DNA of 64,000 nucleotides from Cyclobacteriaceae bacterium. Its GTDB lineage: Bacteria > Bacteroidota > Bacteroidia > Cytophagales > Cyclobacteriaceae. Where the stretch lies: contig BPHC01000006.1 of assembly GCA_026003355.1 (NCBI GenBank), positions 62,001 to 126,000 on the forward strand. Reading direction: 5' to 3'. The notes under the pieces are model-generated. The model did no database searches and was not told the origin of the DNA. It was given only the letters and a program-made list of their open reading frames with translations. This document shows, piece by piece, positions 20,518-33,728 of this stretch. Both the position numbers and the translations under genes were made by a program. The stretch's first letter is position 1. Every line of letters starts with the position of its first letter.

Positions 20518-22458
20518 ATGAAACGGCTCTCCGGCCTTACTTTGCGCCAATGGGCATGGGCAACAGCCCTGCTTTTTTTTGCCCTCATTGCCCTGCAATG
20601 GCTGTGGCTAAATAACCGCCACCGGCAGCTGCTGGCCGTGCAATGGCAAACAGACCTGGTAAGGCAGCAACAGAGCCTTTTCAATGAACTGGCCCGGTTT
20701 GAGTGGCCCCCAGCCGCGAGGCAGGCCCGCATACACCAGCTTAACCGCTCGCTTAACCTGCTGCGCAATGGCGGCACGGTGCCCTTCACCAACCTAAAAC
20801 TCCCGCCCCTGCAAAAGTTACCCTCAGTTACCCTCACGGCTTTGTTAAACGACTGGCAGATCTACACCGGCAGTACCGACAGCCTGAACCGGCAGGCCCA
20901 GGCACTGCTCATCACCAGCCAGTTCGATATGCTGGTGCGCGACCTGCAACGCGAGGCCGCCAGGGAACAAAGCCGCTTTAACCTGTTGCTGGCCGGTACC
21001 CTTGGCATTAACGCACTGGCCCTGGCAGGCCTGGTATTGTGGTTTCAGCGCAAGGTAGTTAAGCCGCTTGAGATGCTGGCCGGCAATACCGCACAGCACA
21101 ATCATACCACCGGCCTGCCACCGAACGAAATAGGCGAGGTTGCCCGGCATATTAGTGAAGTGGTAGAAAACCTTCGCGATGCCAGCGACTTTGTTAATGC
21201 CATTAGCGAAGGCAACCTGAATAAAGACTATCGCGAGCTGGAGCCCGACTATGCTCCCGGGCGCAACAGGCTGGCCGATGCGCTGATTGCCATGCAGGAA
21301 AAACTGCGCCAGATAAACGAAGAAGAGCAAAAACGAAAATGGGCCAACGAAGGTCTTACCCGGTTTGTTGACATCCTCCGGTCATCGCAAAACAACCTTC
21401 AGCAACTGGGCGACCGCATCATCAGCACGCTGGTTCAGTACACCCGCTCCAATCAGGGCGGGTTGTATGTGCTGAATGAAGATGACCCCTCTAACCCGGT
21501 GTTGGAGTTACTGGCCTTGTTTGCCTTTAACACAAAAAAGCACGGGCAGCAGAGAATACAACCGGGCGAAGGTCTGCTGGGGCAAACCTTTCTGGAGAAA
21601 CAAACCGTATACCTCAGGGAAGTTCCTGAAGAATATGTGCGCATAACCTCCGGCCTGGGCGATGCCCCGCCGCGATTTTTGCTTATTGTACCCTTAAAGC
21701 TGGAAGACAAGGTGTATGGCGTGGTCGAACTGGCCTCGTTCGATCCCTATCAGCCGCACGAAATTTCGTTTGTGGAAAAACTTGGCGAAACTTTGGCATC
21801 TACACTTGCCTCGGTGCGCACCGCCCAGCAAACCCAGCGACTGCTCGAAGAAAGCCGCCTGGCCACAGAGGCCATGCGCACCCAGGAGGAAGAAATGCGC
21901 CAGAATATGGAAGAGCTTACCGCCACACAGGAAGAAATGCAACGCATTCTGCGCGAATCGCAGCAAAAGGAAACCTACCTGAGCAACCTGATGGATGCCA
22001 CCGGAGATGCCTTTGTGGCCATTGACCGTTCGTACCGCGTAGCCCTGCGAAACAATGCTCCGCTGTTCGAGCAGTTCATCAAATCCGGCATCCCCTATGA
22101 AAAAGGTTATTATGTGCTCGGCCTGTTTAAAGCCGAAGATCTGGAATACCACAAGTCTATTTACGACCGCGTGTTTAACGGTGAGTCTATAAACGTAACC
22201 AAAAACTATTTTGGGCGCGACTACTCGGTAAATTACAAACCACTGCGCGCACCGGGCGGTGAAATAATCGGGGCCGCCATTTATGCCCACGACCTTACCG
22301 AACAGCAAAAAATGGAAGCCCGCATTCGCGAACTCGAAAACCGGCTGGCAGAGGCTGCTGCCGACACTGTGCTGCAGGAACTGGAAAAAACCCTTCGCAT
22401 TAACCTTGAGGCACTCGAGCTTACCCGCAGGGCCATAAATCCGGGCGAAAAACCGTAG
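20518..22458 (+). CDS. HAMP-GAF-PAS membrane receptor without output domain
   Basis: This 646-residue protein has a membrane helix at about 12-30, a periplasmic helical region at 31-150, and a second helix at about 155-178 ('LLLAGTLGINALALAGLVLW'). Then come a HAMP-like segment (180-260), a GAF domain (about 295-440, 'QGGLYVLNED', 'PGEGLLGQTFLEKQTVYL', 'YGVVELASF'), a Glu/Gln coiled coil (445-490) and a PAS domain (about 490-600). No kinase, methyl-accepting, cyclase or phosphatase domain follows, so it must signal through a partner. Its GAF is clearly related to those of the two GAF proteins downstream. The CheR gene follows after 168 bases. It probably supplies sensory input to the Sia-like module, but its direct link is inferred. 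Confidence 0.75.
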   Translation: MKRLSGLTLRQWAWATALLFFALIALQWLWLNNRHRQLLAVQWQTDLVRQQQSLFNELARFEWPPAARQARIHQLNRSLNLLRNGGTVPFTNLKLPPLQKLPSVTLTALLNDWQIYTGSTDSLNRQAQALLITSQFDMLVRDLQREAAREQSRFNLLLAGTLGINALALAGLVLWFQRKVVKPLEMLAGNTAQHNHTTGLPPNEIGEVARHISEVVENLRDASDFVNAISEGNLNKDYRELEPDYAPGRNRLADALIAMQEKLRQINEEEQKRKWANEGLTRFVDILRSSQNNLQQLGDRIISTLVQYTRSNQGGLYVLNEDDPSNPVLELLALFAFNTKKHGQQRIQPGEGLLGQTFLEKQTVYLREVPEEYVRITSGLGDAPPRFLLIVPLKLEDKVYGVVELASFDPYQPHEISFVEKLGETLASTLASVRTAQQTQRLLEESRLATEAMRTQEEEMRQNMEELTATQEEMQRILRESQQKETYLSNLMDATGDAFVAIDRSYRVALRNNAPLFEQFIKSGIPYEKGYYVLGLFKAEDLEYHKSIYDRVFNGESINVTKNYFGRDYSVNYKPLRAPGGEIIGAAIYAHDLTEQQKMEARIRELENRLAEAAADTVLQELEKTLRINLEALELTRRAINPGEKP

Positions 22459-22594
22459 CCCGGACCGCAAATCAGCGTAAATCGTTAAATTTCAACCCCT
22501 TGAAATAACTGCAGGCAAAAGCCCGGGCAAAAAAAACAGGGCACGCATGTAAGATTTTATACCCTATTTTTCTGCCGGGCTAAACCGCCGGCCG

Positions 22595-22602
22595 TATTTT
22601 TG
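22595..22602 (+). promoter_or_regulatory. Candidate -7 promoter element before cheR
   Basis: TATTTTTG fits TAnnTTTG and is 24 bases before the cheR ATG, in the only sizeable gap (168 bases) of the gene cluster. No well-spaced TTG is seen, so this is weak support for a separate promoter of the cheR-to-transporter run. Confidence 0.3.
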
Positions 22603-22626
22603 AGGCCCTGATTACTGACCCTCATC

Positions 22627-23448
22627 ATGCAGGAAATAGACATAGCCGACTTAAGGCGGATTTCGGAGCTGATTTACCAGAAACATCACTACGATTTCCG
22701 CAATTATGCCATGTCGTCCTTCAAACGAAGGGTACAGCGCATACTGGAATTGAAAAAACTTACCGTAGATGCCCTGATCCGAAAACTTACCGACCAGCCT
22801 GCCTTTATCCACGAATTTCTGGACGAGCTTACTGTAAACGTTACCGAAATGTTCCGCGACCCCGGATTCTGGCGGGTGCTGCGCGAGGAAATTATCCCCT
22901 CCATTCTGCTTAACCACAAGCAGTTCAAAATATGGCATGCAGGCTGTTCCTCAGGCGAAGAGGTGCTTTCTATGGCCATCCTCCTGAAGGAAATGGGAAT
23001 CCACCAGGATGTGCAGATCTATGCCACCGATCTGGACGTGAATATTCTGGAAAAAGCCAAAATGGCCTCCTACCCCCTTAAAAACATGGACCTGAATGAG
23101 AAAAATTACATTCGCTTTCAGGGGGCAGGAAGCCTGAAAGACTACTACCGCGAAGAAAACGGAATGGCCGTGTTTAACCGCGACCTGCTCAGTACGGTTA
23201 CCTACCGCAAACACGACCTGGTGCTGGGTGAAATTTTCAACAAGTTCGACCTGATACTGTGCCGCAATGTGATGATTTACTTTAATCAATCATTGCAAAA
23301 CGAGGTCCTCAGGAAATTCCACGAAAGCCTGTTCAAATACGGATATCTGGCAATTGGCTCCAAAGAATCGCTCATTTGGTGCGATTACGCCAACCGCTTT
23401 ATAGTGGTTAACAACGAAGAAAAAATTTATAAGAAAATAAAGGATTAA
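22627..23448 (+). CDS. cheR: CheR-type protein-glutamate O-methyltransferase
   Basis: These 273 residues contain the CheR N-terminal helical domain (1-75) and the methyltransferase fold. The family signature 'NVTEMFRDPGFW' is present, with the SAM-binding 'HAGCSSGEEVLSMA', 'IYATDLDVNILEKA' and 'FDLILCRNVMIYFN'. CheR transfers methyl from S-adenosylmethionine to receptor glutamates. No methyl-accepting chemotaxis receptor, CheA or CheW gene lies in the window. Candidate targets are therefore the coiled coils of the GAF/PAS receptors beside it or a distant protein. The CheB gene follows after 18 bases, so methylation and demethylation are co-expressed. Confidence 0.88.
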   Translation: MQEIDIADLRRISELIYQKHHYDFRNYAMSSFKRRVQRILELKKLTVDALIRKLTDQPAFIHEFLDELTVNVTEMFRDPGFWRVLREEIIPSILLNHKQFKIWHAGCSSGEEVLSMAILLKEMGIHQDVQIYATDLDVNILEKAKMASYPLKNMDLNEKNYIRFQGAGSLKDYYREENGMAVFNRDLLSTVTYRKHDLVLGEIFNKFDLILCRNVMIYFNQSLQNEVLRKFHESLFKYGYLAIGSKESLIWCDYANRFIVVNNEEKIYKKIKD

Positions 23449-23466
23449 GCGCGCTGCCATCGGCCC

Positions 23467-24063
23467 ATGAATACTTTCAACCTAAATAACAGCTATAAAG
23501 CCGTTGTTATCGGTGGGTCGGCCGGTAGCTTTCAGGGAGTAGTGAAAATCCTTTCGCAGCTGCCGCAGGGTTTTCCATTGCCCATTATTATGTGCCTGCA
23601 CCGGCTTAAGCACGTGCGGCATGGTTTCGTTGAAGCTCTGTCGCTTAAAAGCGTGGTGCCGGTAACCGAACCACACGACAAAGAACCTATTAAAAAAGGA
23701 GGCGTTTATCTGGCTCCGGCCAACTATCACCTTTCGGTTGAACTGGGGCATTACTTTGCGCTCTCAACCGAAGAGATGGTTAACAACTCCCGCCCGGCAA
23801 TTGATATAACACTCGGCACCTGCGCCTATGTATTTAAAGATAAGCTCATTGGCATCCTGCTGTCCGGCGCAAATAAGGATGGTGCCCTGGGCATGAAGCA
23901 AATTAAAGACCGGGGCGGCCTTACTATTGTACAGGATCCGGCAGAATGTATGATCGACACCATGCCCAGGGCTGCCATGGCTGTAACAAACATTGACCAT
24001 GTTTTGAAAATTGACCAGATTGTGAGTTTTTTTAAAGAGCTACATAAGCAATACCGTACATGA
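23467..24063 (+). CDS. cheB: CheB-type methylesterase, stand-alone catalytic domain
   Basis: The 198 residues correspond to the catalytic domain only, without the N-terminal receiver of classical CheB, so it cannot be controlled by CheA-type phosphorylation in the usual way. The Ser-His-Asp triad is visible: Ser18 in 'VIGGSAGSFQG', His45 in 'MCLHRLKHVRHG' and Asp138 in 'LLSGANKDGALGMKQI'. The 'GGVYLAPANYHLSVE' and 'VQDPAECMIDTMPRAA' motifs are also present. It removes methyl groups or deamidates glutamines in receptors. Its last codons overlap the start of the next gene (ATGATG at 24060), which supports one transcript. Confidence 0.88.
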   Translation: MNTFNLNNSYKAVVIGGSAGSFQGVVKILSQLPQGFPLPIIMCLHRLKHVRHGFVEALSLKSVVPVTEPHDKEPIKKGGVYLAPANYHLSVELGHYFALSTEEMVNNSRPAIDITLGTCAYVFKDKLIGILLSGANKDGALGMKQIKDRGGLTIVQDPAECMIDTMPRAAMAVTNIDHVLKIDQIVSFFKELHKQYRT

Positions 24064-24791
24064 TGAACAAACTTGCCATACCCGCGGCCGGCCTGGCGCT
24101 GGCTGTGCTGTTTCTGTTAACCGGTGCGGCAGCCGTATTAAATCTGCTGCTTGTTTCCGCCCCCGGCATTCCCCCCTCATTTTATATGCTATTGGGCATT
24201 TCGCTCCTTTCGGGAGCCGGTGCGCTGATTGTTGCTCTTACCGCCAGAAACGAAGTGGTGGTTTACCGCGAAAAACGCGATGATACACGACTTGCCCACG
24301 AGCAGGCCCGGCACGACCATACCACTTCGCTTAACCTTAAAGCCATTACCGATGAAGTAAACCGGGCCAAATCGGCAGAACAGGCTGTGGAAAAATTTTT
24401 GCACGCCATTGCCAGCCAGCTGCAGGCCGGAGCCGGAGCCTTTTACCTGGTGCAGCAAAACAACGGCCAACGCACAGCCGTATTGCAGGCAGGCTATGCC
24501 ATACCGGTAAGCGAAAAAAACAGCATTGCATACGAGGCAGGCGAAGGACTCATCGGGCAGCTTATCGTAACCGGCAAATCGCTTTATCTGGACGAAATAC
24601 CCGAAGGATACATTAAAATAATTTCCGGGCTGGGCAGCGCCTCGCCCCGGTATGTGTTTATCACCCCTGTCCTGCAGGACAATCAGGTGGTTGGTGTGCT
24701 GGAGTTGGCTTCGTTCACGCCCCTGTCGCCCGAACAACGCAGCCAGGCAGAAGCCGCATGCCAAATCATTGCAGAAAAAATACTGGCGTAA
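24060..24791 (+). CDS. Membrane-anchored GAF-domain protein
   Basis: These 243 residues contain two membrane helices ('AAGLALAVLFLLTGAAAVL' and 'FYMLLGISLLSGAGALIVAL'), a short cytoplasmic linker and a single GAF domain (about 100-243). The GAF repeats the pattern of its neighbours: 'AGAGAFYLVQQN', 'AGEGLIGQLIVTGKSLYL', 'YIKIISGLGSASPRY' and 'VVGVLELASFTPL'. With nothing after the GAF it may be a decoy or regulatory partner of the phosphatase that starts 12 bases downstream. The ligand is unknown. The ATG overlaps the cheB stop. Confidence 0.75.
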   Translation: MMNKLAIPAAGLALAVLFLLTGAAAVLNLLLVSAPGIPPSFYMLLGISLLSGAGALIVALTARNEVVVYREKRDDTRLAHEQARHDHTTSLNLKAITDEVNRAKSAEQAVEKFLHAIASQLQAGAGAFYLVQQNNGQRTAVLQAGYAIPVSEKNSIAYEAGEGLIGQLIVTGKSLYLDEIPEGYIKIISGLGSASPRYVFITPVLQDNQVVGVLELASFTPLSPEQRSQAEAACQIIAEKILA

Positions 24792-24803
24792 ACCGGAACG
24801 ACT

Positions 24804-27800
24804 ATGTGGAAGAAAATTCGGATTAGCACCAAAATTACCCTGCTCATACTGGGCATCTCCTTTGCCGGTGTTGCAGCCATAGCCCTGTTTACTTTCGGGT
24901 ATGTGCGCAAAGCCAATCGCGACAAGTACCTGTTTAGCCTGGATGCCATAGCCCATGCCCGAGCCGACCAGACCGAAACCTTTTTCGAAAACCAGAAAAA
25001 CCGAATCCAACGGCTGGCTGCCAGCCTTTCAGCCAACAGCGACTCACTGTGGGCCGGATTACTGGCACCCGAAGACACTGCCTGCATCATTACTCCCTCT
25101 GGGCAGGTTTACATCTCCGGCCACCCCCAGCTGCCCGAAGGCGCCATGATCGCCAACCCCGATGGAACGGGCTTTACGGCCGCTAATCAAGGGGTGTATT
25201 TTACTTCTGTTCTCAAAGAAGGAAATTATTATTACCTGTATGGTGTAGCACCTGTAACTGATAACTACCTGTTACTGGCAAAAATCGGGCTAAACGCACT
25301 TTACCACAAGTTCAGATTAACCGATGGCCTGGGCAAAACCGGTGAAGTTCTGTTGGTGCGCAGAGATGCCGCTTCCGGAAAACTGTTTCTGGTAAGTCCG
25401 CTGCGGCACGAGCCCGGCTCGGCCATTCGCCTGCTCAATGCTGATGAACCCGCTGCAAACGGGCTAAACGCCATATTTAACCATACACCCGGCTACAATA
25501 CAGGTACTGATTACCGTGGCAAAACAACGCTGTACACCGGCTATGTGCTTTCGCTTTCCGACTGGGCCGTTGCAGCAAAAATAGACGAAACCGAAGCCCT
25601 TGGCGATGCCCAAAACCTTACGCGCACAATGGTGCTGGCCGGAGCCTGCGTACTGCTGCTGGCGCTTTTTATAAGCCTGCTGCTTGCCCGTTCACTCACC
25701 CGGCCACTCAGTTTTATGCGCAACATACTGGGCATGGTTGAACAGGGTATTCTGCCCGAACCATTTGAAGTAAAACGGCTTGACGAATTTGGTCAGGTTA
25801 CAGAAAAGGTAAACAACCTGGTGGCATCGCTTAAAAAGAGCGCGCGTTTTGCGCAGCTGGTTGGCGAGGGCAGGTACGACACCGAATTTGCGCCGGCCTC
25901 CGAAAACGACCAGCTGGGCATGTCGCTCATTAACATGCGCAACAACCTGGTTGAAAACGAAAGGCGCGAAACCGAACGCAACTGGATAGTGCGTGGCGTA
26001 GCCGAGATAAGCGAAATACTGCGCATGCACGATTCGCTCGATACCATGGGTGATGATGTTATTAAATTCATCCTGGAAAAAATAGGAGCCGTGCAGGGGG
26101 CTTTTTATGTGGTGAACGATGAGGCCGAACCGGAGCCGCTCATAGAAATGCGGGCCAGCTATGCCTACGGCCGCAAAAAATACCTCAAAAAAACATTCCG
26201 CTTTGCCGAAGGCCTTGTGGGCCAGGCTGCCATAGAGAAAGATACCGTGTTGCGTACGGAAATTCCGGCAGAATACGTTACCATAACCTCGGGCATACTG
26301 GGAGACCAGCGGCCAACCTGCATCCTCATTGTTCCGCTCATCACCAACGAAGAAGTATATGGCGTGCTGGAGTTTGCCGGCCTTAAAAAGTTCAATCCTT
26401 CGCAGGTAAAGTTTGTAGAAGAACTAAGCCTTATTCTGGCACGCACCATCTTTAACATTAAAGTAAACGAGCGCACCCGCAGGCTTCTGGAAGAATCGCA
26501 GGCTATGAGCAACGAACTGAAAGAAAAACAGGAGGTGCTCAGGCAAAATGCCGAAGAAATGCAGGCCACGCAGGAAGAACTGGAGCGCACCAACCGGGAA
26601 CTGGAAAAACAGATAGAAGAAGTAAACCGCACCCAGAAGCGCATGCAGCTGTTGCTGGAAAACGCCTCGGAGGTGATTACCATTTATGAAGAAGATGAAA
26701 CCATCCGGTACATGTCGCCCTCGGTAGAAACCATTCTGGGTTACGGCCAGAAAGAACTGGTAGGAAAGAGCGATATGTACCTGGTGCACCCCGACTACCG
26801 CGAAGTGTACGAAGGGCTGTTCCGCAAAATGAAGGCTGCCCCCGATGAAAAAGTCACCGCACAGTTTGAGTATAAAACCAAAGACGGCAACTACATTTGG
26901 GTAGAGGCCACCGGCACCAACTGCATGGCCAACCCGGCCATTCACGGTTACATTATTAACCTGCGCGATATTACCGAACGCAGACGTGCCGAGCAGGAGC
27001 AGCGCATGCGCAGTAAAATGCAGGCGCTTTCCGAAAACTCACCCGACCTCATCACCCGGCTGGAAGACGAAATCATCTCGTACATTAACCCCGTAATCGA
27101 AAGCTATACCGGCAAAAGTCCGCAGTGGTTCATCAATCGCAAAGTAAAAGAAGCCGAACTCGACCAGGCTGTACTCCAGGAGTGGCTCAGAATTGTAGAA
27201 CAGGTAAATGCCAGCAAAGAAACCGTTGCAACCGAAATGGATTTTCCCAGCGAGCTGGGCAGACGCGTTATGCAGGTAAACGCCATTCCGGAGTTTGATG
27301 AAAACAACAAACTCGAATCGGTTCTGGTGGTATCGCACGACATCACCGAACGGAAGATGATTGAACTGGAAATACAAAACAAAAACAAAAAAATTACCGA
27401 AAGCATAAACTATGCAAAGCGCATCCAGACGGCTATTTTGCCCAACACCCGCGTGATAAGCCGCACACTGCCCGACTCTTTTATTCTCTACAAACCCCGC
27501 GATGTGGTAAGTGGCGACTTCCCCTGGTACATGCAGCTAAAAGACGAAGTATTTATTGCTGCGGTAGACTGCACGGGTCACGGCGTTCCGGGTGCGTTGC
27601 TGTCGCTCATCGGCTACTTCCTGCTGAACGACATCGTGCGCAGCCGCAAAATTACCGAACCCGGTGTTATACTTGATCTGCTCGATGAAGGCGTAACCAA
27701 AACCCTGCGGCAGGATGAAGATGCCACCACCAAAGACGGCATGGACATTGCCCTTTGTAAAATAAACCTTAACACCCGCCAGGTGCAATACGCCGGAGCT

Positions 27801-28142
27801 CACCGCCCCCTGTATGTAATGCGCAACGGAACCATGGAGGAAATTAAAGGCAACAAGTTCCCCATTGGCGGAGGCATATTTAAAAACCAAACCAACTTTA
27901 CCACCACCACCCTCCAGTTGCAGAAAGGCGACTCGATATACTTTAGCTCAGACGGCTACCCGGACCAGTTTGGCGGACCGGAAGGCCGTAAATTCGGCCC
28001 TAAAAAAGTACGCGAAATTATTGAGCGCGTGCACACCCTGTCCATGCGCGAGGCTGCGGTTATCTTTGAAAATGAGTGGGAAACCTGGCGGGGCGACACC
28101 AAACAAACCGATGACGTGCTGCTGATTGGTATAAAATTTTAA
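24804..28142 (+). CDS. Cache-HAMP-GAF-PAS-PAS-PP2C (SpoIIE) phosphatase, SiaA-like
   Basis: An 1112-residue membrane phosphatase. Domain order: membrane helix 11-34, Cache-like extracytoplasmic sensor about 40-265, membrane helix about 272-295, HAMP 296-345, GAF 408-550, coiled coil 560-612, PAS 615-735, PAS 738-850, and a SpoIIE-type PP2C domain about 880-1112. The PP2C part keeps metal-binding Asp905 in 'VSGDFPWYM' (usual form GDFYW), 'DCTGHGVPGALLSLIGY', 'DGMDIALCKINL', 'YAGAHRPLYVMR', 'YFSSDGYPDQFGG' and 'TDDVLLIGIKF'. In Pseudomonas, SiaA (a membrane sensor with PP2C) dephosphorylates SiaC. The siaB- and siaC-like genes directly follow here, so the same reaction is the best inference. 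The Cache ligand is unknown. Confidence 0.85.
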   Translation: MWKKIRISTKITLLILGISFAGVAAIALFTFGYVRKANRDKYLFSLDAIAHARADQTETFFENQKNRIQRLAASLSANSDSLWAGLLAPEDTACIITPSGQVYISGHPQLPEGAMIANPDGTGFTAANQGVYFTSVLKEGNYYYLYGVAPVTDNYLLLAKIGLNALYHKFRLTDGLGKTGEVLLVRRDAASGKLFLVSPLRHEPGSAIRLLNADEPAANGLNAIFNHTPGYNTGTDYRGKTTLYTGYVLSLSDWAVAAKIDETEALGDAQNLTRTMVLAGACVLLLALFISLLLARSLTRPLSFMRNILGMVEQGILPEPFEVKRLDEFGQVTEKVNNLVASLKKSARFAQLVGEGRYDTEFAPASENDQLGMSLINMRNNLVENERRETERNWIVRGVAEISEILRMHDSLDTMGDDVIKFILEKIGAVQGAFYVVNDEAEPEPLIEMRASYAYGRKKYLKKTFRFAEGLVGQAAIEKDTVLRTEIPAEYVTITSGILGDQRPTCILIVPLITNEEVYGVLEFAGLKKFNPSQVKFVEELSLILARTIFNIKVNERTRRLLEESQAMSNELKEKQEVLRQNAEEMQATQEELERTNRELEKQIEEVNRTQKRMQLLLENASEVITIYEEDETIRYMSPSVETILGYGQKELVGKSDMYLVHPDYREVYEGLFRKMKAAPDEKVTAQFEYKTKDGNYIWVEATGTNCMANPAIHGYIINLRDITERRRAEQEQRMRSKMQALSENSPDLITRLEDEIISYINPVIESYTGKSPQWFINRKVKEAELDQAVLQEWLRIVEQVNASKETVATEMDFPSELGRRVMQVNAIPEFDENNKLESVLVVSHDITERKMIELEIQNKNKKITESINYAKRIQTAILPNTRVISRTLPDSFILYKPRDVVSGDFPWYMQLKDEVFIAAVDCTGHGVPGALLSLIGYFLLNDIVRSRKITEPGVILDLLDEGVTKTLRQDEDATTKDGMDIALCKINLNTRQVQYAGAHRPLYVMRNGTMEEIKGNKFPIGGGIFKNQTNFTTTTLQLQKGDSIYFSSDGYPDQFGGPEGRKFGPKKVREIIERVHTLSMREAAVIFENEWETWRGDTKQTDDVLLIGIKF

Positions 28143-28229
28143 TATGCATGAAAATTCCTCACTTTAAGTAATTTAATGACCCGATATTCAACCAAACCTT
28201 CTAAATTCGAACCTAAATAACCTACAGCA

Positions 28230-28781
28230 ATGGATTTTATCTACAACCTGCACCGCACCATGATGAACCAGCAACTCATACTGGTTTACGAGGGCGAGTT
28301 CACCCAGGAAACCACTAAGTCCATCCTGGCCATGGCCGAACGCAACCTCGACTCTTCAGGCGAAGAGTCGGCCATTAAACGCAAGGTCTTTAACGTAATG
28401 GTCGAAGCCCTGCAAAATATTGTTAAACACAGCGATGAACTGGTAGATGGTGAAGTGCGAAGCCACGCGGCAATTTTTTTAATTGGCAAGGAGCCTGACC
28501 GCTATTCCATTATGACCGGCAATCCCATCCGCAAACCCAATGTGGAAAAACTGAAAAACGCACTGGAGCACATCAACAGCCTGGATAAAGACGGGCTAAA
28601 AGAATTGTATAAAAACATCATTAAAAACACCACTATATCAGAAAAAGGCGGAGCCGGCCTCGGCTTTGTGGATATGGCCAGAAAGTCGGGCGAAAAACTG
28701 GAATTTTCCTTTCCGGAAATGAACACCGAGTACTGCTTTTTCTGCCTCAAAGTAAATGTGCCGCGCGAAAGTGGCGAGTAA
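28230..28781 (+). CDS. SiaB-family protein kinase
   Basis: This 183-residue protein has a GHKL ATPase fold reduced to essentials: N box 'FNVMVEALQNIVKHSDE' with Glu59 and Asn63, and a glycine-rich lid 'SEKGGAGLGFVDMARKSG' (138-154). That is the SiaB plan (DUF6272), a serine/threonine kinase related to anti-sigma factor kinases. In Pseudomonas, SiaB phosphorylates SiaC and opposes SiaA. The siaC-like gene follows after 29 bases and the PP2C phosphatase gene precedes, so kinase, phosphatase and substrate are together. No membrane segment; cytoplasmic. Confidence 0.85.
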   Translation: MDFIYNLHRTMMNQQLILVYEGEFTQETTKSILAMAERNLDSSGEESAIKRKVFNVMVEALQNIVKHSDELVDGEVRSHAAIFLIGKEPDRYSIMTGNPIRKPNVEKLKNALEHINSLDKDGLKELYKNIIKNTTISEKGGAGLGFVDMARKSGEKLEFSFPEMNTEYCFFCLKVNVPRESGE

Positions 28782-28810
28782 ATTTTTAATAAACGAAAAT
28801 TTCAACAACT

Positions 28811-29173
28811 ATGGAAATACTGCATCTGGAAGGAACCGAAGACACCCCCAAAATTATTCTGGACAAGAAAAACGGCATCTTTGAAATATCCGGCCGGTCG
28901 CTGCCGGAAGATTCGGCCGAATTTTACCGCCCCGTGCTGGACTGGATTAAACAGTACAGTGCCGACCCCAATCCCACCACCGACTTTGTGTTTAAACTGG
29001 AATACTTTAACACAGCCTCCTCCAAACTCATACTTGATGTGTTAAATGCGCTGGAAGACATAAAGGGCATGAAAATTCTGTGGTATTATCACGAAGATGA
29101 CGAAGACATGCAGGAAGCCGGACAGGAATTTTCTGAGCTGGTGGAAATACCCTTCGAATTCAAAACCTACTGA
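28811..29173 (+). CDS. SiaC-family regulatory phosphoprotein (DUF1987)
   Basis: These 120 residues form a small alpha/beta protein of the SiaC family, which resembles anti-sigma antagonists in role. The conserved phosphorylation region is 'FKLEYFNTASSKLIL', placing Thr68 at the number reported for the phospho-threonine of Pseudomonas SiaC. Conserved family features 'FEISGRSLPEDSAEFY' and 'WYYHEDDEDMQEAGQEFSEL' are visible. In Pseudomonas, unphosphorylated SiaC binds and activates the diguanylate cyclase SiaD. No GGDEF gene is in the window, so the partner here must differ; the transporter encoded 42 bases downstream is the first candidate. Confidence 0.88.
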   Translation: MEILHLEGTEDTPKIILDKKNGIFEISGRSLPEDSAEFYRPVLDWIKQYSADPNPTTDFVFKLEYFNTASSKLILDVLNALEDIKGMKILWYYHEDDEDMQEAGQEFSELVEIPFEFKTY

Positions 29174-29214
29174 ACCCTTGTCCCGGCCCTGACCGGAACC
29201 GAATGTAATAAGGT

Positions 29215-32200
29215 ATGAGTGAAGAAATTCTCAAAGCGCTTACCCAGCTGTTTGCCATTATCACCAAACAGGACAGCGGCGTAAGCGCAAACGAACGCCA
29301 GTACGTTTTGAATTTTTTCCGTACCGAACTGGACCAGGACTCAGTAAAAGAATACCTGGCCCTGTACGATGAACAGTCGGGATACGGCAAGGCCCCTGAT
29401 ACCGGAGGGGTTAAACTAACCTCGGTAAAAGAATCGGTACGCGTACTGGGTATATGCAAGAAAATAAACAAAACCCTTACCCAGAAACAAAAGGTTGTTG
29501 TACTGATTAAAATACTGGAGCTGGTGGCCGTTGACAAAAACTTTTCGCCCCAACGCATGGAAATTGTAAACACCGTGTCAACGGTGTTTAACATCAGCCC
29601 CGAAGAATATAAACTCATAGAAGATTTCATTACCTCTGCCAATCCGCTGGAACTGAATTACCCCGATATTCTGCTGGGCAACAGCGGTGAAAAAGAACCC
29701 GGCAAACAATACAAGCATGTTAACATTCACATACAGGGCAACCTGGTGTGCATGCGGGTGCGTAGCGTAGACATGTATTTCGTAAAATATGCGGGCGAGG
29801 AATCTACGCTGCTTAACGGCTTCATTATGCAGCCGGGCAGAGTGTACCTGTTCTCGCACGGCAGCACCATAAAAGCCCAGTCGGGCGATGCTCTGTACTA
29901 CAGCGATATTGTTGCCGATTTCAATGAAGAGATTAAAACCACCAAGCTGTCGTTCAATGCCGAAATTGAAGAGTACCGTTTTCCCAACGGCACCATTGGC
30001 CTGCGCGATATACAGGTATCGGAAGGGCCCGGCAAACTCATTGGCATAATGGGTGCCAGCGGTGCCGGTAAAACCACCCTGCTCAATGTGCTGGCCGGCC
30101 TGGCCAAACCCACCAAAGGCGCCATTCGCATAAACGGATTCGACATTTTTGAAGAAAAAGAAAAAATTCATGGCGTAATAGGCTACGTGTCGCAGGACGA
30201 CCTGCTGATAGAAGAGCTTACCGTTTACCAAAACCTGTACTACAACGCCAAACTGTGCTTTGCGCACTACACCGAAGAACAACTGCACAAAAGGGTGATG
30301 GAAGTGCTGGAAGACCTGGGGCTGGACCAGCGCAAAGACCTGAAAGTGGGCAACCCGCTGCAAAAAACCATAAGCGGCGGGCAGCGCAAACGCCTTAATA
30401 TTGCCCTGGAACTCATACGCGAGCCGGCCATACTCTTTCTGGACGAACCCACCTCCGGGCTTTCCTCACGCGACTCAGAAAATGTAATCGACCTGCTTAA
30501 AGAATTGTCGCTTAAAGGAAAGCTGATCTTTGTGGTTATCCACCAGCCTTCTTCCGACATCTACAAGATGTTCGACAAGATGATTATTATGGATACCGGC
30601 GGTTACCCGGCCTACTACGGCCCCCCGGTTGAAGCCGTAACCTACTTTAAAAAATCTACCCTGCAGGTCGACAGCAACCGAGGCCAGTGCGAAACCTGCG
30701 GCAACGTAAACCCCGAACAGATTTTTAATATCATTGAGGCCAAGGTAGTAGACGAATACGGGCAACCCACACCCCGGCGCAAAATAAACCCGGCACAATG
30801 GTATGAATGGTACCGCGAACGCTTTAAAATTCAGAAAGTGGAAGATGTACGCGAAGAACCTCCGCGTTCGCTTAACCTGCCCAACCGGCTTAAACAGACC
30901 CTGATTTTCACCACCCGCGATACGCTGGCCAAACTCAGCAACAAACAATACCTGCTCATTAACCTGCTGGAGGCTCCGCTGCTGGCCTTCATCCTGGCCT
31001 TCATTATCAAATACCGTAGTGCACCGGGCGGAAAAGAATACCTGTTCCGGTTTAACGACAACTTTCCGGCTTTTATCCTCATGAGCATTATCGTTGCCCT
31101 GTTTATGGGACTTACCGTTAGTGCCGAAGAAATTATACGCGACCGGAAAATACTTAAACGCGAATCGTTCCTTAACCTCAGCTGGAACAGTTATCTGTTG
31201 TCCAAAGTTATCATCCTGTTTACTTTATCAGCCATACAAACCCTTTCGTTTGTTCTTATCGGCCACCTTATCCTGGAGGTGGAGTGGCGCATGATTTTGC
31301 CCTACTGGATCATGCTGTTCTCCGTGTCGTGCATGGCCAATGTCCTGGGATTAAACATCTCTTCGGCTTTCAACTCGGCCGTAACGGTATATGTTATGAT
31401 ACCCCTGCTGCTTATCCCCCAAATGATTCTCAGCGGGCTCCTGTTCCGGTTCGACAAACTGAACGAAATCATCAGCACCCGCGGAAAAGTACCCCTGGTA
31501 GCCGACCTGATGGCTTCGCGGTGGGCTTTCGAAGGCCTGGCCGTGTACTCGTTTATAAACAATTCATACGAAAAACCCTACTACACCTACGATAAGATTG
31601 AAGCCCAGGCCGACTTCCGTTCGTCCTTTCTGGTAGATGAGCTGGAAAAAAGACGAAAGTTTATCGCAGAAAACATCAGCACCACCTCCGATTCGGTAAA
31701 AGCGCTTATGCAAAAAGACCTGGAGATTATCCGGAAGTCATTGAAAGATGACTTCTTTAAAAAAGGGCTGGAAAAGATAAACTTTCAACAACCCTGGAAC
31801 CTTGCCATGTTTAACCCCGGTTTCAACCAGCAACTGGAGGCTTTTTTCCCGGCCTATAAAAAGTTTTATCAGGATGTGTACAACAAAGCTGTGGCCGAAC
31901 GCGAAAAAAAGATTTACGAGCGCGAAAACCAGAAAGGCTCAGCATACAACCTCAACGAATACAAAAACCGGTACTACAACGAAAGCCTGGCCGACCTGGT
32001 AAAGAACGTAACTACCAAAAACCGCATTGAAGAATACAATGGCGAACTGCTGCAGAACATCAACCCCGTATTTCTGGACCCCAAGCCCAAAAATATGCTG
32101 GATTACCGTGCCCACTTTTATGCTCCGGTTAAAAACCTGTTGGGCGCCCGGCTAAATACGTTTACCTTTAACCTGCTGGTAATTTGGTGTATGGCTGTGG

Positions 32201-32283
32201 CCTTCTACATAAGCCTGTACTTTGAGTGGCTCAAAAAAGCCATTAACCTTACCAATAAGGTAAGCCTACCGGTAAAAAAGTAG
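29215..32283 (+). CDS. TerB-like/ABC ATPase/ABC-2 permease fusion
   Basis: A 1022-residue half transporter of ABCG layout with extra domains. Residues 1-145 are helical and TerB-like ('LFAIITKQDSGVSANERQYV', 'LVAVDKNFSPQRME'). A beta-rich segment (about 150-255) follows. The ATPase has Walker A 'GIMGASGAGKTTLLN' (about 278-291), the signature 'ISGGQRKRLNIALE' (about 386), Walker B 'AILFLDEPTSGL' (about 404) and the switch His in 'VVIHQPSS'. A CxxC ('GQCETCGN') lies near 491. Five membrane helices span about 580-780. A charged, roughly 190-residue extracytoplasmic segment then precedes a last helix at about 985-1005. Two copies would make a transporter. The substrate is unknown. It is last in the Sia-like cluster, which suggests it is the regulated output. 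Confidence 0.8.
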   Translation: MSEEILKALTQLFAIITKQDSGVSANERQYVLNFFRTELDQDSVKEYLALYDEQSGYGKAPDTGGVKLTSVKESVRVLGICKKINKTLTQKQKVVVLIKILELVAVDKNFSPQRMEIVNTVSTVFNISPEEYKLIEDFITSANPLELNYPDILLGNSGEKEPGKQYKHVNIHIQGNLVCMRVRSVDMYFVKYAGEESTLLNGFIMQPGRVYLFSHGSTIKAQSGDALYYSDIVADFNEEIKTTKLSFNAEIEEYRFPNGTIGLRDIQVSEGPGKLIGIMGASGAGKTTLLNVLAGLAKPTKGAIRINGFDIFEEKEKIHGVIGYVSQDDLLIEELTVYQNLYYNAKLCFAHYTEEQLHKRVMEVLEDLGLDQRKDLKVGNPLQKTISGGQRKRLNIALELIREPAILFLDEPTSGLSSRDSENVIDLLKELSLKGKLIFVVIHQPSSDIYKMFDKMIIMDTGGYPAYYGPPVEAVTYFKKSTLQVDSNRGQCETCGNVNPEQIFNIIEAKVVDEYGQPTPRRKINPAQWYEWYRERFKIQKVEDVREEPPRSLNLPNRLKQTLIFTTRDTLAKLSNKQYLLINLLEAPLLAFILAFIIKYRSAPGGKEYLFRFNDNFPAFILMSIIVALFMGLTVSAEEIIRDRKILKRESFLNLSWNSYLLSKVIILFTLSAIQTLSFVLIGHLILEVEWRMILPYWIMLFSVSCMANVLGLNISSAFNSAVTVYVMIPLLLIPQMILSGLLFRFDKLNEIISTRGKVPLVADLMASRWAFEGLAVYSFINNSYEKPYYTYDKIEAQADFRSSFLVDELEKRRKFIAENISTTSDSVKALMQKDLEIIRKSLKDDFFKKGLEKINFQQPWNLAMFNPGFNQQLEAFFPAYKKFYQDVYNKAVAEREKKIYERENQKGSAYNLNEYKNRYYNESLADLVKNVTTKNRIEEYNGELLQNINPVFLDPKPKNMLDYRAHFYAPVKNLLGARLNTFTFNLLVIWCMAVAFYISLYFEWLKKAINLTNKVSLPVKK

Positions 32284-32348
32284 GTGCCCCTGGAAAAAAT
32301 GGCCGGAAGGAGTTAGAATTGCGCCCAATCAACACGGCTGTAAGGTTT

Positions 32349-32378
32349 TTGGCCGGGTTGACTGAATTTATAACTTTG
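32349..32378 (+). promoter_or_regulatory. Bacteroidota-type promoter of the lipoprotein gene
   Basis: TTG at 32349-32351, then 19 bases, then TAACTTTG at 32371-32378 (TAnnTTTG). Both boxes and the spacing fit the Bacteroidota primary-sigma consensus. The expected start of transcription is near 32385, 13 bases before the ATG. Confidence 0.65.
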
Positions 32379-32397
32379 TGGACCTAATTTCGGGCTT

Positions 32398-33297
32398 ATG
32401 AAAAAGCTATCTGCCGTACTTATTGCAACTGCCCTGGCGGCCTGTGGTTCGGAAAAGAAAACTGACGAACAGGCATTTATGGAAACACTGGATACCGCCC
32501 AGAATGCCGGCCCCACCATATCCGAAGCGGTAATCGGTGACATCCTCCAGCAAATTCCCAGCCCGCTGGAGATTGCCGTACTATTAAAGGAGTCGGGCAA
32601 AAAATACAACGCCTCCCTGCTCAACTCGCCCGATAACCTGCCCAAATACAACAGCAACTACCAAAAAGCGCTTAACCTGGGTATTTACGGGGCCGACCTG
32701 GGCTATACCAACATCTATGAACAAAACCAGGATGGCATTAAATACATCAGCACCATCAAATCGCTGGCCGACGGCCTGAATATCGGGCAGTTTTTCGACA
32801 TCGAAACCATTGGCCGGCTGGCCACCAACAGCAAAAATCTGGACTCACTTTTGCTTATCACTACCCAAAACTTTAACTCTATAAACCACTACCTGCAAAC
32901 CCAGGGCCGGGCCAACCTGAGCGTGCTGCTCCTTACCGGCGGATGGATTGAGGCCGTACACATTATGTGCAGCGTGGCCGCCCAGGACCCAACCAATAAA
33001 GTGTTGCAGGAAAAAATTGGCGAACAAAAGGTAATACTGGAAAACATATTGTTGCTGCTTTCCTTTTACAAAGAAAAAGACCAGAATATGGCGGCTTTGC
33101 TGCAAGACATGCAGGAATTGAAAAATATTTTTGACCGGGTAAACATTACTTACACCTACAAGGAATCCACGTTTGAAGTGGTTAACGGGGTAATGGTAAT
33201 AAAAGATAACAGCACCACTACTATTGATATTACTCCACAGGATGTAACCGACATTCGCAGTTCAATCATAAACATTCGTAACAAGATTATCAGCTAG
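32398..33297 (+). CDS. Lipoprotein of unknown function
   Basis: These 299 residues begin with a lipoprotein signal ('MKKLSAVLIATALAACGSEK', lipobox 'LAAC'), so it is likely anchored in the outer or inner membrane. The mature part is almost entirely alpha-helical, with 'DILQQIPSPLEIAVLLKESG', 'LNLGIYGADLGYTNIYEQ' and 'SVLLLTGGWIEAVHIMCSVA'. I recognise this as a type common in Bacteroidota but cannot name a function. A clear promoter precedes it. The small secreted-protein gene follows after 5 bases, so the two form an operon ending at the terminator near 33774. Confidence 0.7.
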   Translation: MKKLSAVLIATALAACGSEKKTDEQAFMETLDTAQNAGPTISEAVIGDILQQIPSPLEIAVLLKESGKKYNASLLNSPDNLPKYNSNYQKALNLGIYGADLGYTNIYEQNQDGIKYISTIKSLADGLNIGQFFDIETIGRLATNSKNLDSLLLITTQNFNSINHYLQTQGRANLSVLLLTGGWIEAVHIMCSVAAQDPTNKVLQEKIGEQKVILENILLLLSFYKEKDQNMAALLQDMQELKNIFDRVNITYTYKESTFEVVNGVMVIKDNSTTTIDITPQDVTDIRSSIINIRNKIIS

Positions 33298-33302
33298 CAA
33301 CT

Positions 33303-33728
33303 ATGAAACGACTCGCATTTTTGGTCTGGACACTCGTAGCACTCAGTACAACTGGTGCCTCCGCCCAGTGCAATTCAGAGGCCCTGTCAAACCAGTGCAT
33401 ACCCAAACTGGCAGCCGGGTTCAACTTTTTGAAAAGCTATAAAATTGACGGTGAAGGTGGCTCGAAAGACAAGGTGGAATACTCCTACGTTTTCACCAAG
33501 GGCACGCAGTATATGATTAACATCTGCGCCCCCAACCAGCCCACCGATGGCATAGTGGTAACCCTCTACGACTCCAACCGCAACAAAGTGGCTACCAGCA
33601 AGGTAAACGGCCAGTATATTTCGGCCATTGCCTACCCCTGCAACGCCACGGGAATCTATTACATTCAATACACGTTCGATGGCTCTTCCACGTACTGCGG
33701 CGGCAGCGCATTGGGTTTTAAGCGATAA
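33303..33728 (+). CDS. Small secreted beta-sandwich protein
   Basis: The 141 residues start with a signal peptide ('MKRLAFLVWTLVALSTTGAS', then 'AQ'). The mature part is beta-rich and contains six Cys, in 'CNSEALSNQC', 'INICAPNQ', 'AYPCNATG' and 'TYCGG', which could form disulfides outside the cytoplasm. The pattern of 'YVFTKGTQYMINIC', 'IVVTLYDSNRNKVA' and 'GIYYIQYTFDG' resembles pre-peptidase C-terminal-like sandwiches, but that is only resemblance. It follows the lipoprotein gene after 5 bases, and the pair probably acts together at the cell surface. A strong terminator lies 23 bases after the stop. Confidence 0.65.
   Translation: MKRLAFLVWTLVALSTTGASAQCNSEALSNQCIPKLAAGFNFLKSYKIDGEGGSKDKVEYSYVFTKGTQYMINICAPNQPTDGIVVTLYDSNRNKVATSKVNGQYISAIAYPCNATGIYYIQYTFDGSSTYCGGSALGFKR

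Follow-up and report, generated by a model that had tools for sequence, protein, structure and literature searches.

The closest described relative of the system considered here is SiaABCD of Pseudomonas aeruginosa, in which a PP2C phosphatase (SiaA), the SiaB kinase and SiaC are encoded together. According to PMC8457831, SiaD is activated by bound SiaC, and T68 phosphorylation of SiaC blocks this binding. The discussion of that paper proposes modulation of neighboring proteins as a common role of the DUF1987 family, and the paper also names HsbA/HsbD and BgrV/BgrR, where a STAS-domain partner acts on an output protein. Those outputs are diguanylate cyclases, and SiaABC itself has so far been studied as a cyclic di-GMP device. 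Here we analyze a 64,000-nucleotide stretch from a Cyclobacteriaceae bacterium (contig BPHC01000006.1, positions 62,001 to 126,000; the window), where an operon at 20518-33728 retains a switch of this type beside an ABC transporter, in a genome without a GGDEF match. We consider it likely that the switch gates an exporter, SiaC docking on the TerB domain of the transporter with T68 phosphorylation as the switching event.

As in SiaABCD, phosphatase, kinase and SiaC are encoded together, and T68 and the phosphatase aspartates align with their P. aeruginosa counterparts. Unlike SiaABCD, the locus has no SiaD or other GGDEF protein, and a transporter with TerB, FHA-like and ABC parts follows. The phosphatase carries a GAF and two PAS domains, while CheR, CheB, a GAF protein, a lipoprotein and a secreted protein are added. 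None of the three switch proteins reaches the equivalog cut-off of its NCBIfam model (SiaA, SiaB or SiaC), and diguanylate cyclases, the outputs of the Hsb and Bgr systems, are absent from the window genome. A second comparison comes from Mycobacterium tuberculosis and its Hanks-type kinase PknF. Rv1747, a putative ABC exporter with FHA domains, forms a two-gene operon with this modulating Ser/Thr kinase, as stated in PMC3908365 and PMC5549992. Unlike Rv1747, which has two FHA domains, the protein here is accompanied by a SiaB kinase and a separate SiaC, has TerB in front, and has an FHA-like domain unrecognised by Pfam. The Sia switch and an FHA-carrying putative exporter paired with a Ser/Thr kinase are already known. 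The combination of the Sia switch with a TerB-ABC transporter appears to be new; a search of titles and abstract openings of open-licence papers found no description of such a unit, in agreement with an earlier note on this DNA, whose author knew of no described system of this make-up.

A SiaABC-type switch without SiaD

The window encodes a SiaABC-type switch that lacks SiaD, and its phosphotransfer activity is predicted from sequence. The PP2C protein matches solved P. aeruginosa SiaA chains (E 8.7e-37; 7.1e-38 for the alignment to the SiaA PP2C structure 6k4e) and the NCBIfam SiaA model (E 6.7e-61), but its 206.6 bits stand against an equivalog cut-off of 700. It carries the phosphatase motifs SGDF (from residue 903), VDCTG (921), SSDG (1048) and TDDV (1102), and retains the positions aligned to SiaA D457, D474, G477, D600, G601 and D653, active-site residues named in PMC7647112. 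The aspartates of the active-site motifs are invariant in 46/46 aligned PP2C homologues. SiaB aligns with 6kko_A over most of its length (E 2.2e-14) and scores 85.4 bits against an equivalog cut-off of 225. SiaC aligns with solved P. aeruginosa SiaC (6kko_C, E 1.6e-17) and scores 87.3 bits against an equivalog cut-off of 150. Its T68 (codon 29012-29014) falls on P. aeruginosa T68 within a conserved YxNT motif, YFNTASSK versus YLNTSSIK. The earlier note had given the phosphatase Cache and PAS sensors; the PP2C and PAS domains were recovered, while a family profile search matched no Cache family. A HAMP match in the same protein, at 22.9 bits, is under its cut-off of 25.

Other loci show variation in the switch genes themselves. 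SiaB and SiaC share a single 321-amino-acid (aa) reading frame in locus L026 (G020:C11), a possible natural kinase-substrate fusion, and SiaC matches lie in similarly long frames (~320-350 aa) in other genomes. In L011, L019, L026 and L030, a PP2C-type protein, SiaB and SiaC are followed by a protein of 160-173 aa with no family label, which may be a different output.

GGDEF has 0 matches in the whole window genome (G000), which excludes a SiaD-type output here and widens the earlier claim that none is encoded at the locus. Relatives likewise have no adjacent GGDEF gene: among 118 genomes drawn from the order of the window genome, 117 have no match and the remaining one (G030) is without a SiaC match. 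Control genomes were positive in 8/14 cases.

The switch recurs beside TerB-ABC transporters

To define cognate SiaC we used at least 148.6 bits to the window SiaC, which gave 63 copies in 62 of the 118 genomes. A TerB-ABC gene lies within 2.5 kb of 55/63 copies, in 14/22 families (read by eye), and is present in 62/62 genomes with cognate SiaC, so that the gene order is conserved well outside close relatives. Four genomes (G018, G020, G065 and G081) hold both genes, but apart. A close TerB-ABC (at least 1050 bits) without cognate SiaC was found in two, G051 and G082, where the contig starts 265 or 320 bases before the transporter match, leaving its upstream side unseen. Loci with the link are also titled Bacteroidales, Marinilabiliaceae and Flavobacteriales. 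Because the switch stands next to an ABC transporter in a genome without a SiaD-type enzyme, here and in many other Bacteroidota, it probably controls transport.

We then compared 137 TerB-ABC proteins longer than 900 aa, namely the window protein and those of L031-L170, less four loci without such an ABC frame (L107, L138, L139 and L170). Selection was by transporter match for L031-L090, while L091-L170 represent the 80 best among the pattern-scan matches listed, so proportions are not those of a random sample. A SiaC gene within 2.5 kb stands on the same strand in 53 loci and on the opposite strand in 15; none was seen in 69, although some contigs of this last class end near the transporter gene and the absence is partly unseen. 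The same-strand class also has SiaB (50), PP2C (47), CheR (40), CheB (39), the lipoprotein (51) and the secreted protein (42), with PP2C, CheR and CheB counted within 9 kb. Opposite-strand loci have SiaB (13), PP2C (1), the lipoprotein (7) and the secreted protein (7). By eye, 14 of them are convergent and one (L100) divergent, and in L129, L133, L134, L163 and L168 a complete lipoprotein-secreted protein-ABC unit faces SiaC and SiaB. Loci without SiaC have SiaB once, the lipoprotein 37 times and the secreted protein 19 times. Transporter and lipoprotein thus form a pair found more widely, and only part of this family carries the Sia switch.

The SiaC family as a whole, by Pfam profile, occurs in 77/118 genomes, many with further, more distant copies; the window genome has a single one. 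No TerB-ABC was found in the loci of the 30 best SiaC-family matches (L001-L030, up to ~3.4 kb each), which points to a link particular to a single subfamily of SiaC. In each of two genomes, G047 and G102, the Pfam profile finds 34 SiaC-family matches and the window SiaC finds 38, suggestive of a large expansion of the switch.

TerB shows extra constraint when SiaC is near

The earlier note was right that the 1022-aa transporter has an extra N-terminal domain. The added region consists of TerB and a second domain, modeled with a fold similar to that of FHA domains. TerB (PF05099) scores 30.4 bits on the isolated N-terminal part, with a cut-off of 24.4. In a scan of seven such parts, two fell short (L133, of the convergent class, under the cut-off and L163 unmatched), and Pfam FHA matched none of the seven.

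Constraint was assessed on pairs of proteins matched for identity in the ATPase and membrane core (0.52-0.66), with a bootstrap over taxa. The rows comprised 52 same-strand, 15 opposite-strand and 68 SiaC-less proteins, one of 53 and one of 69 having been lost to poor domain coverage. The identity excess of TerB over SiaC-less TerB-ABC was 0.144 (0.098-0.183) for same-strand and 0.062 (0.029-0.099) for opposite-strand loci. For the FHA-like domain the corresponding values were 0.029 (0.010-0.047) and 0.000 (-0.033 to 0.032). TerB, more than the neighboring FHA-like domain, is thus under extra constraint when SiaC is nearby. Positions conserved in ≥85% of same-strand proteins but in <30% of SiaC-less ones number 7/140 in TerB, 0/103 in the FHA-like domain, 4/297 in the ATPase (nucleotide-binding domain, NBD) and 5/482 in the rest.

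We also modeled SiaC and the N-terminal domains of L103 as a single chain of SiaC, spacer and TerB-FHA-like part, read through the natural stops. The alignment had 50 rows chosen from those available, with SiaC-less transporters left out. Mean pLDDT (predicted local distance difference test) was 89.6 and pTM (predicted template modeling score) 0.78; the only stretch of at least three residues under pLDDT 50 was the spacer, 128-146. By our reasoning a freely placed SiaC would give a pTM of about 0.6, and the higher value suggests a preferred placement in the model. The prediction of a SiaC-TerB complex proposed in the earlier note gave indirect support for contact, from a single fusion without a control. 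In a Foldseek search with the fused model, eight matches reached E ≤0.001, all of them P. aeruginosa SiaC. Weaker matches included an entry of CEP170, a protein with an FHA domain (E 0.011), and many FHA-named entries from E 0.031, with probabilities up to 1.00, as well as PG1108, a protein of unknown function (E 0.069).

Several points weigh against a transporter gated by SiaC. A pTM value for a fused chain does not measure binding, and this one comes without predicted aligned error, coordinates or a non-cognate control. We set the 148.6-bit cut ourselves; including the three copies that follow (143.5 bits, 57-59% identity), which sit on contigs without a TerB-ABC match, would make the count 55/66. 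Full-length TerB-ABC paralogues without SiaC exist, including two in the window genome (L071 and L072), so SiaC is not essential to this type of transporter. The TerB excess is clear at core identity 0.5-0.65, nearly gone at 0.65-0.75 and back at 0.75-0.85, where pairs are few. The pairs compared are not independent of one another, and class membership follows the tree in part. A FastTree phylogeny built from the core columns shows at least 19 changes in the presence of SiaC (no shuffled-label comparison), but same-strand loci mostly group in its leaf order, and so shared ancestry is not fully removed. Finally, SiaC and TerB show no rate covariation beyond the transporter core among the 52 same-strand loci (partial r -0.03, p 0.545). 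Nor did SiaC covary there with the FHA-like, NBD or membrane parts (best for NBD, r 0.13, p 0.096). The null result either counts against tight SiaC-TerB co-evolution or reflects low power of the test. Taken together, the earlier suggestion that SiaC controls transport is well backed by its context, that is, adjacency in both strand arrangements, the rarity of GGDEF and the constraint on TerB, but not by covariation.

A proposed mechanism and its alternatives

We propose that the sensor part, GAF and PAS domains of the PP2C protein would perceive a signal and that this protein would dephosphorylate T68 of SiaC, which SiaB would re-phosphorylate with ATP, the signal setting the balance. SiaC in one of its two forms, most probably without the phosphate, would dock on the TerB domain of the TerB-FHA-like-ABC protein. 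The same phospho-sense as in P. aeruginosa is assumed by analogy, because T68 phosphorylation prevents SiaC-SiaD binding there. Docked SiaC would then alter, upward or downward, the ATPase and transport activity of the ABC protein. The transporter, whatever its cargo, would cooperate with the products of the two adjoining genes, the lipoprotein and the secreted protein, and would probably act on a component of the cell surface. Such an arrangement would be consistent with the proposal that DUF1987 proteins modulate adjacent proteins.

The alternative that survives best, although we regard it as unlikely, is that SiaC acts on another target in the cell, for example an unlinked sigma-factor circuit, and that the transporter is a neighbor that merely co-responds transcriptionally. 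The structural resemblance of SiaC to an anti-sigma factor antagonist (PMC7647112) would fit this, as would the other SiaC copies in these genomes that adjoin SiaB with no TerB-ABC in view. However, co-transcription does not explain a link that also holds in convergent loci, the extra constraint falls on TerB, and the window genome has one SiaC only.

A second alternative keeps the transporter as the target but has the FHA-like domain read phospho-SiaC as FHA domains read phospho-threonine, so that phosphorylation would recruit SiaC rather than release it. The resemblance in fold of the domain after TerB to FHA domains, the conserved T68 and the precedent of Rv1747, an FHA-carrying putative exporter in an operon with a modulating kinase (the two papers cited above), speak for it. 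We nevertheless judge it very unlikely: Pfam FHA is missing from the seven proteins tested, the canonical FHA phospho-binding residues are not evident in the sequence, and this domain has little or no extra constraint near SiaC. That the gene order was kept through descent alone, with no working link between switch and transporter, would suit the grouping of same-strand loci in the tree but deserves almost no credence, given a link in 14/22 families and in loci titled from three further groups, and the rearranged, opposite-strand arrangements. The reading in which SiaC gates the transporter through TerB is the one we prefer.

CheR and CheB in a genome without an MCP match

PF00015, the family of methyl-accepting chemotaxis proteins (MCPs), has 0 matches in the window genome at E 0.001, whereas MCPs occur in 39/118 genomes of the order. 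The only CheB match in the window genome is that of the operon; CheR has one strong match, again in the operon, and one weak match in contig C3. With no MCP found and the sole CheB in this operon, CheR and CheB can hardly serve the usual chemoreceptors, and their likeliest target is a sensor of the operon, which they would probably adjust through reversible methylation.

As a candidate substrate site we inspected a coil motif, EEMxATQEEL, in 46 PP2C proteins. CheR and CheB both lie within 9 kb in 38 cases; the motif is kept in most of these but altered in L057, L063, L103 and L110, and L108 has no coil. Among the eight without both genes in that distance, six retain all or nearly all of the motif (L039, L040, L047, L049, L055 and L131), and two have an altered version (L070 and L102). 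CheR and CheB are present farther away in L040, L049 and L055, and the L131 contig starts at the PP2C gene. The adaptation layer by methylation that the earlier note added to the switch is plausible from the sole CheB match and the lack of an MCP match; a substrate did not emerge from the analysis.

Organization of the locus

All eight plus-strand reading frames were confirmed at 20518-32283, with coordinates and family matches as the earlier note described them and short gaps between them (Table 1). From CheR to the ABC gene the genes are separated by 18 bases, a 4-base overlap (CheB/GAF), and 12, 87, 29 and 41 bases. The core of the proposed unit holds, but its bounds shift at both ends. Downstream it reaches beyond 32283 to 33728, with lipoprotein and secreted protein genes that are also found in many relatives. 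Upstream, the receptor gene is not present ahead of CheR in loci of the same genus or family (L031-L033); this first-gene GAF receptor is an optional input outside the conserved core. It had been called a GAF/PAS receptor; the GAF domain is confirmed, and the PAS match (18.9 bits) is under the cut-off of 23.1. GAF receptors of 625-1000 aa occur in some other loci, e.g., L040, L049, L096, L102, L103, L106 and L110. An extra CheR gene lies ahead of the conserved CheR-CheB pair in L096, L099, L103, L106, L110 and L144, some of them with a GAF receptor.

Table 1. Features of the locus, with positions in the window
Feature	Positions	Strand	Evidence or remark
GAF receptor, 646 aa	20518-22458	+	GAF_2 E 2.5e-16; hydrophobic N-terminal segments (from sequence); weak PAS-like C-terminal part
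Stand-alone CheR methyltransferase, 273 aa	22627-23448	+	PF01739 E 5e-44
Stand-alone CheB methylesterase, 198 aa, no receiver domain	23467-24063	+	PF01339 E 3.7e-49
GAF_2 protein, hydrophobic N-terminus (from sequence), 243 aa	24060-24791	+	PF13185 E 1e-11
SiaA-like phosphatase, 1112 aa	24804-28142	+	Sensor part, GAF, two PAS, PP2C/SpoIIE (SpoIIE E 1.3e-20)
SiaB-family kinase, 183 aa	28230-28781	+	SiaB_fam_kinase NF038262 E 5.1e-54, 182.5 bits, cut-off 85
SiaC phosphoprotein, 120 aa	28811-29173	+	PF09345 E 4.8e-40, 136.4 bits, cut-off 24.5
TerB domain of ABC protein, residues 1-140	29215-29634	+	PF05099 27.2 bits, cut-off 24.4; proposed SiaC docking site
FHA-like beta domain of ABC protein, residues 141-243	29635-29943	+	Foldseek matches to FHA-named entries
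ABC ATPase and ABC-2 membrane part of 1022-aa transporter	29944-32283	+	PF00005 E 2e-32, PF01061 E 1.3e-18
Lipoprotein, 299 aa, lipobox LAAC (from sequence)	32398-33297	+	Family recurs after transporter
Secreted protein, 141 aa, signal peptide (from sequence)	33303-33728	+	Family recurs after transporter

The transporter joins ABC_tran and ABC2_membrane in one chain, which fits an ABC-2 exporter (ABCG/White-like). Its closest NCBIfam model is TIGR00955, with a score under the cut-off of that model, and residues near 783-975 probably form a large non-cytoplasmic insert, judging by the sequence. A CxxC pair at residues 492 and 495, between the ATPase and the membrane part, is at least 90% kept in 19 aligned transporters. 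The window genome has two more full-length TerB-ABC paralogues, at C2:289232-292264 (L071, 47% identity) and C1:284005-287037 (L072, 45%). Neither has SiaC nearby; immediately upstream of the L071 paralogue is a member of the same lipoprotein family. The lipoprotein, modeled from an alignment of 39 of the 52 references listed, is mostly helical (pLDDT 87.4, pTM 0.81), and its fold has no Foldseek match at E ≤0.001. No Pfam family above cut-off was found in either the lipoprotein or the secreted protein.

Implications

A broader reading, for which we would put the chances at a little under even, is that of a phospho-gated exporter widespread in Bacteroidota, with SiaC as a general partner-switch adaptor, TerB as its receptor and CheR/CheB methylation of a non-MCP sensor for adaptation. 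If SiaC does gate the transporter, this would be, to our knowledge, the first SiaC output other than a cyclase and the first TerB domain to act as a phospho-switch receiver. On this reading, SiaC should bind the transporter within residues 1-140, and the binding should depend on T68. If true, the Sia switch would be separated from its textbook output, TerB would gain a testable role as the receiver of a phospho-switch, and these bacteria would have a post-translational route to controlling an exporter.

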